Positions 6,053-21,575 of a stretch of 64,000 bases of DNA are shown here, piece by piece. The notes under the pieces are model-generated. The model was not told where the DNA came from, did no database searches, and saw nothing but the letters and a program-made list of their open reading frames with translations. The stretch's first letter is position 1. Each line of letters opens with the position of its first letter. The stretch is from Salinimonas profundi (lineage in GTDB: Bacteria > Pseudomonadota > Gammaproteobacteria > Enterobacterales > Alteromonadaceae). The DNA lies in contig NZ_JABBXD010000002.1 of the NCBI RefSeq assembly GCF_014750655.1, positions 545,636 to 609,635 on the forward strand, in the 5' to 3' direction. The translations under genes and the position numbers were made by a program.

Positions 6053-7047
6053 TACATATCCTCCAGCAGATGGGCGAGTTTGGCATTCATCGTATCCATT
6101 GAGTCTTCGGTGAACAGCAAAATAAGATCGCAGCGCACGTTGTAGCCTTCAAGACCATAGCTGAGCTCAATAGCCAGCGTTCTGCGCCACTTCAGGCTGT
6201 TGGCAGTGATAATGTCGGTGATAGCACGATGCTGGCCCAGAACAACAGGGTGACCCTGACTAAAATTGATATCCAGTTGCTCTGCCAGTCCGGTCAGGCA
6301 CGTACCTATCAATATACTGGCCGCATCCATCAGCAGCTCAAGCTGGATTCTATCGTCCACCTCCCCCTGCACATTTAAAATGCGAGCAACATCCTCAAAA
6401 CTTGAATCGCTCAGGATGCACAATGCCTCCCCCCGTACGCCCGGCCCTAAAAACCCCTGACAGACTGCACTGACCTCTTCATGACTATCAATGTCAGAAA
6501 GCATCATATGAAGCTCGGAGACTTCGATGAGGTTTACGTTGGGAATAGGCAAATGTACGAAAACATTCATGATACGCGCGAGATGATCTCCGGCCCGACC
6601 CATTGCAATATTGGTGATCTCCTGATAGCAGTCGCGGATTGCCGGGTCAAGCGAGGCACTTTGAGGGTGGGTTTCGCCATCTTCAGTCAGAATACGATTC
6701 GCGATAAGCGTTTTTTTCAGGATGTCCGGATTGACCGGCTTTTGAATAAAATCTGTGGCGCCCATCGCCGTGACCCGCTCATGCGCTTCCGGCTGTATGT
6801 CACCAGAAACAACAATGGTGGTAACAGAAAGTTGCTCCTCGCGAATGGCGGTTAATGTCTCATAGCCATCTACAATGGGCATATTCAGGTCAAGCAGTAA
6901 CAAGTGACCTTTGCCCTGTCGAATCAGTGCGAGGGCTTCCCCCCCATGTTTGGCAAAATGAACGGAAACCTGCCAGTCCTGGGGCAAGCTTTTTGCCACC
7001 TGCTTTCGCGCAACCAGAGAGTCGTCACACACTACTACTGAAAACAT
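6052..7047 (-). CDS. Response regulator with CheC/CheX-type phosphatase domain
   Basis: A receiver domain (residues about 1-125: acidic pair in VVVCDDS, phosphoacceptor Asp in LLLDLNMP, VVSGD, and the Lys of FIQKPVNP) is fused to a CheC/CheX-like domain. The first half of the latter carries the full CheC phosphatase signature D-x3-E-x2-N-x22-P (DCYQEITN, then Pro 23 residues on); the second half (DAASILIG) lacks the Glu. Proteins of this family dephosphorylate phospho-aspartate in receivers. The ATG at 7047 is chosen over an upstream in-frame start at 7110 because it begins the receiver directly and follows GGAAGGGA. It is coupled to the PAS gene. Confidence 0.82.
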   Translation of the reverse strand: MFSVVVCDDSLVARKQVAKSLPQDWQVSVHFAKHGGEALALIRQGKGHLLLLDLNMPIVDGYETLTAIREEQLSVTTIVVSGDIQPEAHERVTAMGATDFIQKPVNPDILKKTLIANRILTEDGETHPQSASLDPAIRDCYQEITNIAMGRAGDHLARIMNVFVHLPIPNVNLIEVSELHMMLSDIDSHEEVSAVCQGFLGPGVRGEALCILSDSSFEDVARILNVQGEVDDRIQLELLMDAASILIGTCLTGLAEQLDINFSQGHPVVLGQHRAITDIITANSLKWRRTLAIELSYGLEGYNVRCDLILLFTEDSMDTMNAKLAHLLEDM

Positions 7048-7190
7048 CTGCGCTTTATCCCTTCCGATATCCTGACCTGCACAGATACGGCGAACGCATT
7101 TTCTCTGCATAGGTCTGCTAAAAAACCAAGAGTCTTAAACCTTAGCTCTTATCGGCAGGTTGTCTATAGGACATAAGGTTAAATTGCTAA

Positions 7191-18287: not shown

Positions 18288-18508
18288 ATTTTATTCTCCT
18301 GAACCTGCATTATATTAAATGAAAGCTCACAATAACCTGTATCTATTCAGAATCTGTTATCATTACTGGTAATGCCGAGCTGGCTGCGACCCAGGCTGGG
18401 TAAAAAAAGATGCGCTATTACACTGCCACCAGCAATCTTGCATATCCCTTTTCGGTTAAACATTGTAGTCTTATAAGCCCGCTTACACTGCGCACAAAAA
18501 GGATTTGC

Positions 18509-19684
18509 ATGCGTATACAGTCGCTCGATGCTATTCGTGGTTTCGCCGTTCTCGGTATTCTTTTTATGAACATTGCACATCATATGAACATCCTCACTGG
18601 GTATGTGCCATTTGATAATGCATTGGTGAGTGACAGCATAATCTCTCTTGTTCAGCTTATCTTTGCCGACGGGAAATTCCGAACCCTGTTTTGCATTTTG
18701 TTTGGGGCGGGTATGGCCATACTTTACGAAAATGGGCAGAGGCAATCGGTTCGGGTAAAAACATTCTTACAGACCAGATTGAACTGGTTATTCGTTTTTG
18801 GCTTGGCTCACGCTGTATTTATTTTTGGCGGCGACATACTCATGCTGTATGCAATCTCCGGCATTATGTTTATAAACTATTTGCACCTGGACAATGAAAG
18901 CCTGTTTAAAAAAAGCCGCTTCCTCATTATTTTAGGCGCGCTCCTGATGGTGATAGTTAACCTGCTCACTCTACTTTTTGGGAATACGGAACCGATTACG
19001 CGAGGTTCCCAGGAATATACGGACATGCTATCAATCTGGCAGGACGGGTATCTTATCCAGGTGGCCGTTCAAAGTGGCATTGCGTTGGGCATGCTGTTGC
19101 TTTCTTTTCTTAACACACTGTGGTTGGTGCTTGGGTTAATGGGGCTGGGAGCATGGCTGTATCGAACACGTTTTTTCTCTACAGGCTTTGGTAAAAGTAC
19201 ACAACAAAAGCTTCTAGCTGGCGCGATAATAACCACGCTTGTTTGTATCGCTCTGCGTTTCTCACTTCCTGGCGTTGATGAAGAAATATCCTCGGCGCTT
19301 TTTGGTTTGTGCGCTATTTTCATCTCACCACTTTATGCCGACTTTTTAATTAAACACGCCAATAATGACAGTCGTTTGTTCAGAGCCCTCTGTTATTGCG
19401 GGCAGGTAGCCTTGTCACTCTATCTCATTCAATCTATCAGCATGGCGCTGTTATTTCGCCTGTTACTGCCGGCGGTGTGGCCCGACTTTGAGCTGTACAT
19501 AACCCGAATAGACCTGATGGCCTTCGCTCTGCTCTTTACCATTTTTCAGATCTATCTTGCGCGCGCTATTGTGAAAAATTTCTCTCACGGCCCCTTCGAG
19601 TTCGTGTGGCGAAAACGTTATAGACAAGGCTATATCCAGAAAGTCAGTGAAAACGCCCACTGTGAATCTGAAACAGCAAAATAG
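18509..19684 (+). CDS. DUF418 family membrane protein (YeiB-like)
   Basis: A 391-residue polytopic membrane protein. It opens with the DUF418 signature RIQSLDAIRGFAVLGIL and LFMNI, continues with GKFRTLFCILFGAGMAI, and ends with the DUF418 domain (GQVALSLYLIQSI). YeiB-like proteins have about ten membrane segments and no proven biochemical role; resemblance to acyltransferase-3 proteins suggests a possible acyl-transfer role. The ATG at 18509 is chosen over an in-frame start at 18410 because it follows AAAAGGA and starts exactly at the family N-terminus. The double-glycine peptide gene follows 131 bases downstream on the same strand. Confidence 0.85.
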   Translation: MRIQSLDAIRGFAVLGILFMNIAHHMNILTGYVPFDNALVSDSIISLVQLIFADGKFRTLFCILFGAGMAILYENGQRQSVRVKTFLQTRLNWLFVFGLAHAVFIFGGDILMLYAISGIMFINYLHLDNESLFKKSRFLIILGALLMVIVNLLTLLFGNTEPITRGSQEYTDMLSIWQDGYLIQVAVQSGIALGMLLLSFLNTLWLVLGLMGLGAWLYRTRFFSTGFGKSTQQKLLAGAIITTLVCIALRFSLPGVDEEISSALFGLCAIFISPLYADFLIKHANNDSRLFRALCYCGQVALSLYLIQSISMALLFRLLLPAVWPDFELYITRIDLMAFALLFTIFQIYLARAIVKNFSHGPFEFVWRKRYRQGYIQKVSENAHCESETAK

Positions 19685-19815
19685 CGATAATGACAAATCA
19701 CGTATCTGGGAAAACGGTTATTTTGTACAGTTCGCTTTTTTTCTAAACCATTTAGTCTTGTAGTTAGTCCGAGGCATTAGCAACTGGTACAACGATGATT
19801 AAAAGGAAATTAAGT

Positions 19816-19953
19816 ATGGAAACACTAAAACAAGAACACCTGAGCAAGGTAACGGGCGGCAATTCAGTAAAAGAAAACGCCAAAATAGCGGTAGATACGT
19901 GTGGTGCCGGTAACGTAAAAAGCGTGTCTACGTCCGGTTTTGAGTGTAAATAA
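19816..19953 (+). CDS. Double-glycine-leader secreted peptide precursor
   Basis: A 45-codon gene with AAGGAAA 7 bases before the ATG. The 15-residue leader METLKQEHLSKVTGG fits the double-glycine consensus: Leu -12, Leu -7, Val -4, Gly -2, Gly -1. Such leaders are cut by the C39 peptidase domain of a dedicated ABC exporter. The predicted 30-residue core has two cysteines 15 apart (Cys29, Cys44), consistent with one disulfide, and ends VSTSGFECK. The core is related to the C-terminus of the lipoprotein encoded 53 bases downstream. No C39 transporter is in the window. A bacteriocin-like or signalling role is inferred, and the exported product has no known relative that I recognise. Confidence 0.75.
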   Translation: METLKQEHLSKVTGGNSVKENAKIAVDTCGAGNVKSVSTSGFECK

Positions 19954-19957
19954 ATTA

Positions 19958-19983
19958 CAGGCTGACATGGATGTGTCAGCCTG
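19958..19983 (+). terminator. Hairpin (partial terminator or processing site) between peptide and lipoprotein genes
   Basis: A perfect 10-bp inverted repeat (CAGGCTGACA / TGTCAGCCTG) with a 6-base loop begins 5 bases after the peptide stop and is followed by ACTTTTC. The weak T-run suggests incomplete termination or mRNA stabilisation, which would give more peptide than lipoprotein. Confidence 0.6.
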
Positions 19984-20005
19984 ACTTTTCAGTGAGGATA
20001 AAGCG

Positions 20006-20215
20006 ATGATCAGCACCAAAAAACTATTAGCTTGCCTGTGCGTTTCGATGCTGACCGCATGCTCATCCAACGTAACGAAGGAGCATGCTTCCAGTACCGA
20101 TGCGCCCCTGTCGGCTACCGCGCAACAGGTGCAAAACAATGCCAAGCTTGCATTGGCACATTGTGGCAAAGGTAGGGTTAGCGCCGTGTCTACAAAAGGT
20201 TATGAATGCAAATAA
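20006..20215 (+). CDS. Small lipoprotein sharing the core module of the upstream peptide
   Basis: A 69-residue lipoprotein preceded by GAGGATAA. The signal peptide ends in lipobox LTAC (Cys19) with Ser at +2, which predicts outer-membrane location. A polar linker of about 20 residues leads to the final 30 residues (40-69). These align without gaps to the core of the double-glycine peptide: 16 of 30 identical, with NAK, CG.G.V, VST.G and ECK shared and both Cys (53, 68) at the same spacing of 15. It could be an immunity or decoy protein, a surface-anchored version of the peptide, or the ancestor of the peptide gene. No known family was recognised. Confidence 0.7.
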   Translation: MISTKKLLACLCVSMLTACSSNVTKEHASSTDAPLSATAQQVQNNAKLALAHCGKGRVSAVSTKGYECK

Positions 20216-20258: not shown

Positions 20259-21575
20259 TTAGTCAGACGATATAAGGTGAAACTTTCGCTGTCTGCCATC
20301 CAGATAACGAACCTGTTTACCGTCAAAAAATGCATCTTCTTCTAACATGATGCGAATCTTTTTATCCCATTCAGGCACGTAAGTAGTGGCGTTGAGTTCG
20401 ATGGAATACGCCGTATTTGGATAGAGCGGGTAGTCTCCTACCACGGGCAGACCTTCCTGCGCATCCCACATACCAATGGTAGGACCGGCAGCGTGGCCGT
20501 GAAAACCCAGAGGGTGCGTATAAATAGACGGTGAAATGCCGGCCTGAACCGCCTGTTGTCTGGATTTACGCAGGACCTCGTTTCCACTTCTGCCCAGCTT
20601 AAAGTTGTCGGTGAGTATGTTCTGAAGCTGGTTCCCCACGCCAAGCGCCTTTACCAGCCCTGCCGGTGGCTCTGTTTCGCCAGGTCTTAATACGTACGCG
20701 TGTTGTTGCTGATCTGTATTTAATCGTAGGTAGGTAATGCCAAAATCAACGTGTAACAAGTCACCGGGCCGTATGACATTTTCCTCAGGCCGTTGACTGA
20801 AGTCACGTTCATCCTGCCCCTTCCCAGCGCGCTGAATCGACACGGTAGGATGAAACCAGTTTTTAAGCCCCATGGCTTTACTTTGGTCCCGCAGCCACCA
20901 AACGACATCATCTGTACGCGTTTCACCTGGCGTAACCACTGCATTAGAAAAAGCTTTGGCAATAAGTTGATGACCAATTTCAGCTAATTGAGGGTAATAG
21001 GTCATTTCCAGCTCACTGCGTGTCTCCAGCCACGCGATGGCCAGCTTTTCTGCAGATACGACACGTGAATGCAGCTTGTCAGGCAGGGCCGCCATGAACT
21101 GTGCTTTTTCGGTACTACTCATACCATCTGCCAGCGCAAATGACTTTGAAACATTGATACCGATTCGGTCAGGATCACGAGATTTAATAATCTCTGCCAG
21201 TGCCGCCCATTGGTCAGGCTGTGCGTCTTTATCCCACGCCTTTTCGAACGTGTCGCCCATCGCGTATCGTGCTACTGCCAGTTTTTCCAGTGGTTGATTC
21301 TTGCCGGGATTATAAATAACCAGCATGGTATGCCTGCGTGCAGAGAGCCAGGTGGAAGGCAGCATGGTTTTTAATACCGGGTCTTCGTTGTATTCACGCG
21401 ACATGATTACCCACATGTCGATACCCGTCCGGTTCATAAGATGAGGCAAAACATTATCAAACCGCTGCTCTAATATGTTATCAACGATTTGTGCCCGCTC
21501 TTTCATGCTGGCAATTTCTGTAGCCAGCACGGGCAATGAAAGAAACAATAACAAAGACGTCAGGATACTTCGCAT
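20259..21575 (-). CDS. Exported M24-family metallopeptidase (Xaa-Pro peptidase-like)
   Basis: A 438-residue protein with a signal peptide (ILTSLLLFLSLPVLA), so a periplasmic peptidase. The C-terminal pita-bread domain has all five expected metal ligands: Asp in LLHVDFGITYL, Asp in NTDQQ, His in THPLGFHGH, Glu in YSIELNA and Glu in IMLEEDAFF. The N-terminal creatinase-like domain is present. The family usually cleaves Xaa-Pro bonds or dipeptides. It converges with the small lipoprotein gene, with 43 bases between them. The expected substrates are peptides, but no link to the neighbouring secreted peptide is shown beyond position. Confidence 0.88.
   Translation of the reverse strand: MRSILTSLLLFLSLPVLATEIASMKERAQIVDNILEQRFDNVLPHLMNRTGIDMWVIMSREYNEDPVLKTMLPSTWLSARRHTMLVIYNPGKNQPLEKLAVARYAMGDTFEKAWDKDAQPDQWAALAEIIKSRDPDRIGINVSKSFALADGMSSTEKAQFMAALPDKLHSRVVSAEKLAIAWLETRSELEMTYYPQLAEIGHQLIAKAFSNAVVTPGETRTDDVVWWLRDQSKAMGLKNWFHPTVSIQRAGKGQDERDFSQRPEENVIRPGDLLHVDFGITYLRLNTDQQQHAYVLRPGETEPPAGLVKALGVGNQLQNILTDNFKLGRSGNEVLRKSRQQAVQAGISPSIYTHPLGFHGHAAGPTIGMWDAQEGLPVVGDYPLYPNTAYSIELNATTYVPEWDKKIRIMLEEDAFFDGKQVRYLDGRQRKFHLISSD

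Follow-up and report, generated by a model that had tools for sequence, protein, structure and literature searches.

The window, a 64,000-nucleotide stretch of the Salinimonas profundi genome, encodes a 45-residue peptide with a double-glycine (GG) leader, followed on the same strand by a 69-residue lipoprotein whose C-terminus carries the same 30-residue module as the peptide core. A pair of this kind recurs in an unrelated bacterium. The recurrence hints at an as yet undescribed system of peptide and protection or of peptide and competitor. The reading we favor, tentatively, is that the peptide belongs to a bacteriocin-type PCAT export system and that its tethered paralog may protect the producer. 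Both genes, the shared module, GG-type relatives of the peptide, recurrence of the pair, and several module genes within exporter or bacteriocin loci form the observed basis of this reading. The features are as follows.

19816..19953, + strand: double-glycine-leader peptide of 45 aa (leader 19816-19860, core 19861-19950, stop 19951-19953), from the reading frame and its translation
19861..19950, + strand: 30-residue module as the free core peptide, with Cys14 and Cys29 of the core; profile match
19958..19983, + strand: stem-loop of 11 bp followed by ACTTTTCAGT, 5 nt past the peptide stop and 5' of the lipoprotein gene
20006..20215, + strand: lipoprotein of 69 aa, with lipobox LTAC, Cys19 (20060-20062), and Ser at +2
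20123..20212, + strand: C-terminal 30-residue module of the lipoprotein; 16/30 residues identical to the peptide core

The peptide consists of METLKQEHLSKVTGG followed by the 30-residue core, with Leu at -12, Leu at -7, and Val at -4 preceding the GG, a leader of the type carried by PCAT-exported class II microcins and bacteriocins. An alternative in-frame ATG at 19795 would yield a 52 aa peptide; judged by eye, the start at 19816 is preceded by the better ribosome-binding site (AAGGAAA, 19803-19809). The core has a net charge of about +1 by hand count and looks soluble, not of the hydrophobic membrane-active type. In the lipoprotein, a lipobox (LTAC) with its Cys at residue 19 was recognized by eye. 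Under the Lol rule, Ser at +2 directs sorting to the outer membrane, where the window lipoprotein is accordingly expected to reside. The stem-loop between the two genes folds at -19.5 kcal/mol (z -3.76) with a T-rich tail, and is possibly a terminator or attenuator separating peptide from lipoprotein. A DUF418 protein is encoded upstream on the same strand (18410-19684), and a convergent M24 peptidase gene lies downstream (20259-21575).

An earlier note, made from the letters of this DNA, had described the leader residues and a gapless match of 16 residues between the two modules with equal Cys spacing. Both reading frames lie where it placed them with the residues as described, and they bear out that one module follows a GG leader in the first gene and a lipoprotein signal in the second. 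The alignment likewise confirms 16 identities over 30 residues without gaps and two Cys 15 apart in each module, whereas none of 20,000 shuffled versions of the lipoprotein module reach 16 identities (best, 9). At the DNA level, the modules share 51 of 90 positions and only 10 of 30 third codon positions, suggesting that their similarity is old and has been kept at the protein level. Searching the whole genome (4.07 Mb, 30 contigs) with the 45-aa peptide recovers only the peptide itself and the lipoprotein (E 1e-5). As counted by identities (the module being too short for a tree), the window core matches the peptide cores of L100 (22/30), L026 (20/30), L057A (19/30), and L057B (15/30, with one residue dropped), and matches nine anchored copies at 10-17 of 30 residues, its own lipoprotein standing at 16/30 and the copies of L100, G097, and G267 at 17/30. 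A recent tandem duplication within the window genome was rejected because three foreign peptide cores are closer to the window core and third codon positions agree at only 10 of 30.

Neither window protein matches a Pfam or NCBIfam model above its cut-off, and the same holds for eight module relatives; the module thus carries no name in either database. Bacteriocin_IIc (PF10439) aligns weakly to peptide residues 1-26 at 15.9 bits (cut-off 27.1; E 0.013), and the peptide reaches no PF10439 or NCBIfam cut-off that would place it among class II microcins and bacteriocins. PADLOC returns nothing for the two proteins, and PHROGs returns nothing for the peptide and weak matches only for the lipoprotein (best E 0.027). 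Across 20 diverse copies, the conserved core reads A-x3-C-G-x-G-x-V-x2-V-x6-C, with A10, C14, V22, and C29 invariant, and the paired Cys residues could form a disulfide. AlphaFold predicts a helix of 16-17 residues followed by a beta-hairpin in both proteins, with the leader and linker at low confidence. In the peptide model (33 alignment rows), the helix spans 14-29 and the strands 34-37 and 42-44, with a block pLDDT of 91-93 from residue 21; in the lipoprotein model (18 rows), the helix spans 37-53 and the strands 58-62 and 65-68, with a block pLDDT of 95 from residue 41. A known fold was also sought and set aside: the module finds only chance-level matches in a PDB sequence search (best E 3.5), and Foldseek gives a best E of 8.7 for the peptide model and matches no chain with the lipoprotein model. 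Modules follow three kinds of N-terminus, namely a lipoprotein signal, a membrane helix, or an export leader, in Proteobacteria and Bacteroidota.

The module was traced with a DNA pattern, CGxGx[VIM]xxVxxx[GSR][FY]xCK, in a GTDB-based collection with one genome per species (84,980 species, contigs >=3 kb); the pattern requires the final CK and so misses variants. It matches 68 stretches, 57 of which encode lipoproteins (40 by lipobox regular expression, and 17 recognized by eye, their residue at -3 being Ser or Cys), four carry another N-terminal hydrophobic segment (L078, L082, L083, and L106), and two are GG-leader loci (L057 and L100). The rest comprise a broken fragment (L064), a masked stretch (L070), one cut at the locus edge (L092), and two likely chance matches (L047 and L079). 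Most matches derive from Burkholderiales (Roseateles, Pelomonas, Mitsuaria, and Undibacterium), with others in Hyphomonadaceae and Parvularcula. Profile searches find the module in 11/394 genomes of the order (three weak), in 14/395 of the family, in 1/369 of the class, which is the window genome itself, and in 2/249 of the Aquimarina family (one weak). Within the family, GG-type modules occur in the window genome (G000) and in G186, and a weak match in G047 was left unclassed; a single-sequence search of the family matches 7/295 genomes. No match was found among plasmids searched with the 30-aa core, phages searched with the 45-aa peptide, or viral contigs scanned with the strict DNA pattern, and carriage by phage or plasmid was discarded on these grounds. 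By eye, 14 loci with orphan anchored modules show no common neighbor; sharing is confined to Undibacterium (L058 and L103) and to Hyphomonadaceae (L042 and L066).

Whole-genome module searches covered 36 genomes from the 68 pattern loci, 34 of which hold a single module; the other two, Aquimarina longa (G1043) and the metagenome-assembled genome ZJ1.bin62 (G1044), each hold two adjacent modules with GG peptides. Two modules also occur in four of 13 further genomes: a lipoprotein with a leaderless module ORF in G097, two anchored modules 1.9 kb apart in G546, and two far apart in both G300 and G324. In the last three genomes (loci L035 for G546; L033, L038, L034, and L037 for G300 and G324), no GG-type module peptide was found. 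GG-type leaders precede module peptides in four genomes, namely that of the window, G1044 (L100), A. longa (L057, two copies), and G186 (L006/L026), which belongs to the window's own family. At L100, a lipoprotein beginning VKLLAAATLALLLCAC (1175-1363, GTG start) ends 83 nt 5' of a module peptide with a GG leader (1447-1611). Beyond this peptide lie the end of an ABC ATPase gene and hydrophobic, glycine-rich ORFs, of which one carries a GG leader. In A. longa, two GG module peptides lie in a row (2293-2442 and 2485-2643), the next genes encoding two TIGR03949 peptides, HlyD, and a C39 ABC exporter; the search of its genome revealed no anchored copy. The module peptide of G186 has GA in place of GG and sits in a GG-peptide array after HlyD and PCAT genes; it is the sole module found in that genome, where the search revealed no anchored copy. 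In G097 (L004/L027), a module lipoprotein lies among GG peptides, and the module ORF that lacks a clear leader lies 86 nt upstream of it.

A complete pair, with a lipoprotein paralog adjoining the peptide as an immunity protein might, is therefore present in two of the four GG-peptide genomes (the window genome and L100), and no anchored module was found in G1043 or G186. The earlier note had asked whether peptide and lipoprotein always occur together. They do not: lipoproteins and membrane-anchored modules commonly stand without a partner, so pairing is not a rule. It had also held that the pairing would be chance or a decayed duplicate if the module were widespread in unpartnered lipoproteins and the 45-codon reading were not conserved or expressed in relatives. 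The module is indeed widespread in such lipoproteins (57/68 pattern hits, 34/36 genomes with one module), but non-conservation of the 45-codon reading is excluded because GG-type module peptides exist in G186, a Proteobacteria MAG, and Aquimarina.

Exporters were sought in 84 loci with a C39 profile whose source sequences, the PCATs of L025, L026, and L057, necessarily match it. Further matches lie in L027, L082, and L031=L064 (one place), and the exporters of L026, L057, L027, L082, and L031=L064 all exceed the PF03412 cut-off. The nearest module lies 0.6 kb from the exporter in L026, 2.0 kb in L057, L027, and L064, and 2.4 kb in L082, where an anchored module is followed by a GG peptide, HlyD, PCAT, and an outer-membrane efflux protein. 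Peptides in L057 and L027 exceed the class IIb bacteriocin cut-off of TIGR03949. Among 77 anchored-module loci (735 kb in all, counting broken and cut loci but not L064, which duplicates L031), three have a C39 exporter and 74 have none in the fetched DNA, mostly 8 kb, as the flanks of pattern loci reach up to 8 kb with some modules at the edge. At PCAT densities of 0.25 (measured in the window genome), 0.5, and 1 per Mb (both assumed), 0.18, 0.37, and 0.74 of the 77 loci would be expected to contain a PCAT, and the post hoc P for 3/77 is 0.0009, 0.006, and 0.04, respectively. None of the three anchored-module loci with a PCAT is from Burkholderiales.

Several of these exporter loci contain features of their own. 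At L027:9327-16924 (G097), HlyD, a PCAT, several GG peptides (one above the TIGR03949 cut-off), the module lipoprotein, and the leaderless module ORF lie together. Near-identical GG-leader peptides of the GIGGSVSASVEHSNGNTTVRVEVKFEW type lie downstream of HlyD and a C39 exporter at L026:10183-11198 (G186); they are hydrophilic and, by eye, not bacteriocin-like. A. longa encodes at L057:20-1478 a LanC-like protein (PF05147, E 4e-50) and then a GG-leader peptide (1299-1478) with a Gly/Cys/Ser/Thr-rich end, possibly a lanthipeptide locus beside the module peptides. In Psychrosphaera saromensis, a broken module gene at about 5880-5970 of L064 (the same place as L031) has no usable start and an internal stop; it lies about 2 kb downstream of the C39 exporter, on whose upstream side a GG peptide is encoded.

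The genome search for a C39-peptidase ABC transporter that the earlier note had proposed gives one match in the window genome (PF03412; G000:C10:52177-52563) with an adjoining HlyD gene, on another contig and unlinked to the pair; the exporter and membrane-fusion protein needed for a GG peptide are thus both present. This PCAT could serve the window peptide in trans. In the same region (L025:5975-10859, contig C10), HlyD, the C39 ABC exporter, a LuxR/GerE-type regulator, a 62-aa GG-leader peptide (6928-7116) ending GEDGGDLPDLLTQ, and a RimK/YheCD-like ATP-grasp protein are encoded in one run, which looks like a graspetide-type cluster. A PF10439 search of the window genome for GG peptides returns only the window leader (E 0.155); this search misses peptides, as shown by the PCAT locus, whose GG peptide emerged only on reading the ORFs.

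The nearest genome found is G655, in which the M24 neighbor is 89% identical. Its lipoprotein region and stem are kept (10 pairs, z -4.23) and the T run is absent; it lacks the peptide ORF, and its lipoprotein frame is shifted by one base at a C run before the module. The shift is either recent or a sequencing error, since the downstream codons look conserved. Ten further loci of the genus (L111-L120), taken from 32 genomes that have the M24 gene, show no resemblance at the site of the pair, and the family profile search gives no same-genus match beyond G000 and G655, with 20 same-genus genomes listed without a match.

Immunity by a tethered paralog, the tentatively favored reading, would work as follows. 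Cleavage after GG would release the core for export, probably through the only PCAT/HlyD pair found in the genome, and the core would fold as a helix and hairpin pinned by one disulfide. The next gene would supply the same module as a lipoprotein retained in the producer's envelope. As both modules have the same predicted fold and conserved residues in common, the tethered copy would most likely bind the target of the free peptide, or the peptide itself, and by such binding could shield the producer while the peptide acts on other cells. The stem-loop after the peptide stop could allow more peptide than lipoprotein to be made. The foreign GG cores, the L100 pair, exporter and TIGR03949 neighbors, the genome's own PCAT and HlyD, and the stem-loop count in favor, as do the peptide loss and lipoprotein frame shift in G655. 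Evidence against a plain toxin/immunity pair includes the soluble-looking core, the two peptide genomes without an anchored module, the many orphan lipoproteins, the 74/77 anchored loci without a C39 exporter, and the double modules of non-GG genomes. In addition, the window core resembles its own lipoprotein at least as well as it does the L057B core (15/30), three anchored copies (L100, G097, and G267) match it at 17/30, the G655 shift is perhaps a sequencing error and its T run is absent, and the window PCAT, unlinked to the pair, has its own GG peptide and ATP-grasp protein.

A variant that we consider unlikely is that exported peptides of a new class have copied a module widespread in envelope lipoproteins, the free copy competing with that module in rivals and the tethered paralog absorbing it in the producer. 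On this view the toxin's fold, anchored at the membrane, would itself confer immunity, and the orphan lipoproteins of Burkholderiales and other groups would act as targets or as shields without a partner. Equally unlikely in our judgment is a communication or biofilm peptide that is read at the envelope, with the lipoprotein buffering it or marking kin. The predicted compact core, which by AlphaFold and hand charge count looks soluble rather than membrane-active, would suit such a signal, as would the hydrophilic GG peptides around the L026 module peptide and the LuxR/GerE-type regulator in the window genome's PCAT locus; GG-motif small proteins of Synechococcus enable biofilm formation, according to the available part of that report (PMC4997328). 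However, no sensor or receptor gene was recognized beside the pair, where the neighbors are DUF418 and M24 peptidase genes, and the neighbors in L057 and L027 are of class IIb bacteriocin type.

Somewhat more doubtful is an arrangement of two subunits, in which free and tethered modules would associate at the envelope or the tethered one would aid GG-peptide export via HlyD/TolC. The common predicted fold agrees with this, as do the anchored module beside the GG peptide, HlyD, PCAT, and efflux genes of L082 and the ones close to PCATs at L027 and L031/L064; for E. coli, the available text of one study reports that TolC has a lipoprotein partner (PMC13082787). The lack of a C39 exporter in the fetched DNA of 74/77 anchored-module loci and the two GG-peptide genomes without anchored modules (G1043 and G186) argue against it. 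More doubtful still is module shuffling, in which an ordinary envelope-lipoprotein module became fused to a GG leader and adjoins its relative by chance, with no joint function. The lipoprotein form is the commonest (57/68 pattern hits) and usually stands alone (34/36 genomes), and genomes with two anchored copies exist (G546, G300, and G324); however, adjacent GG and anchored or GG and GG modules arose in the unrelated L100 and L057 despite the rarity of the module (11/394 genomes of the order, three weak; 14/395 of the family; 1/369 of the class).

A chance ORF or decayed duplicate, which would accord with the peptide's absence from G655 and the lack of same-genus matches beyond G000 and G655, is very improbable and was set aside given that leader and core recur in distant bacteria, the ribosome-binding site is good, 0/20,000 shuffles are as similar, and third codon positions have diverged (10/30) while the protein was kept.

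Should the tethered copy give protection from the free copy, or compete with it, one fold would serve both toxin and immunity, a form of self-protection for which no precedent was found among the open-access papers searched. This would also provide a first handle on the role of the orphan small lipoproteins of many Roseateles, Pelomonas, and Undibacterium genomes.

The earlier note knew of no described system that combines a peptide with a lipoprotein of the same module, which fits the open-access papers searched: judged by title and start of abstract, none concerns a double-glycine peptide plus such a lipoprotein, and Treponema denticola offers a partial precedent. Like class II microcins and class IIb bacteriocins (TIGR03949; PF10439), the window has a GG leader, a genomic PCAT with HlyD, and a small neighboring gene, and module relatives in L057 and L027 lie near peptides above the TIGR03949 cut-off. 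Unlike them, the window peptide scores below the PF10439 cut-off with no NCBIfam match and looks soluble with one possible disulfide, and the gene proposed to give protection encodes a lipoprotein paralogous to the peptide. Immunity lipoproteins of the NisI type belong to Gram-positive bacteria and are not known to be paralogs of their peptide. These lantibiotic immunity proteins resemble the proposed system in providing lipid-anchored self-protection against an exported peptide, as far as the available text describes them (PMC4828448). The nap island of Neisseria gonorrhoeae similarly has GG-leader peptides and a putative immunity gene on a horizontally acquired island; its NapI resembles LagC, not the peptides, and the word lipoprotein does not appear in the available part of the article (PMC11798529). 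In T. denticola, tandems of a lipoprotein and a bacteriocin-type signal protein lie upstream of tepA1, near a bacteriocin ABC transporter, and killing activity was not found according to the available text (PMC11879956). As in the window, the lipoprotein gene adjoins that of a double-glycine secreted protein; the T. denticola lipoproteins are about 400 residues long, however, and the same portion of the report describes no module common to lipoprotein and secreted protein (PMC11879956). On that portion of the report, the T. denticola tandem is a partial precedent and the closest case among the papers searched.
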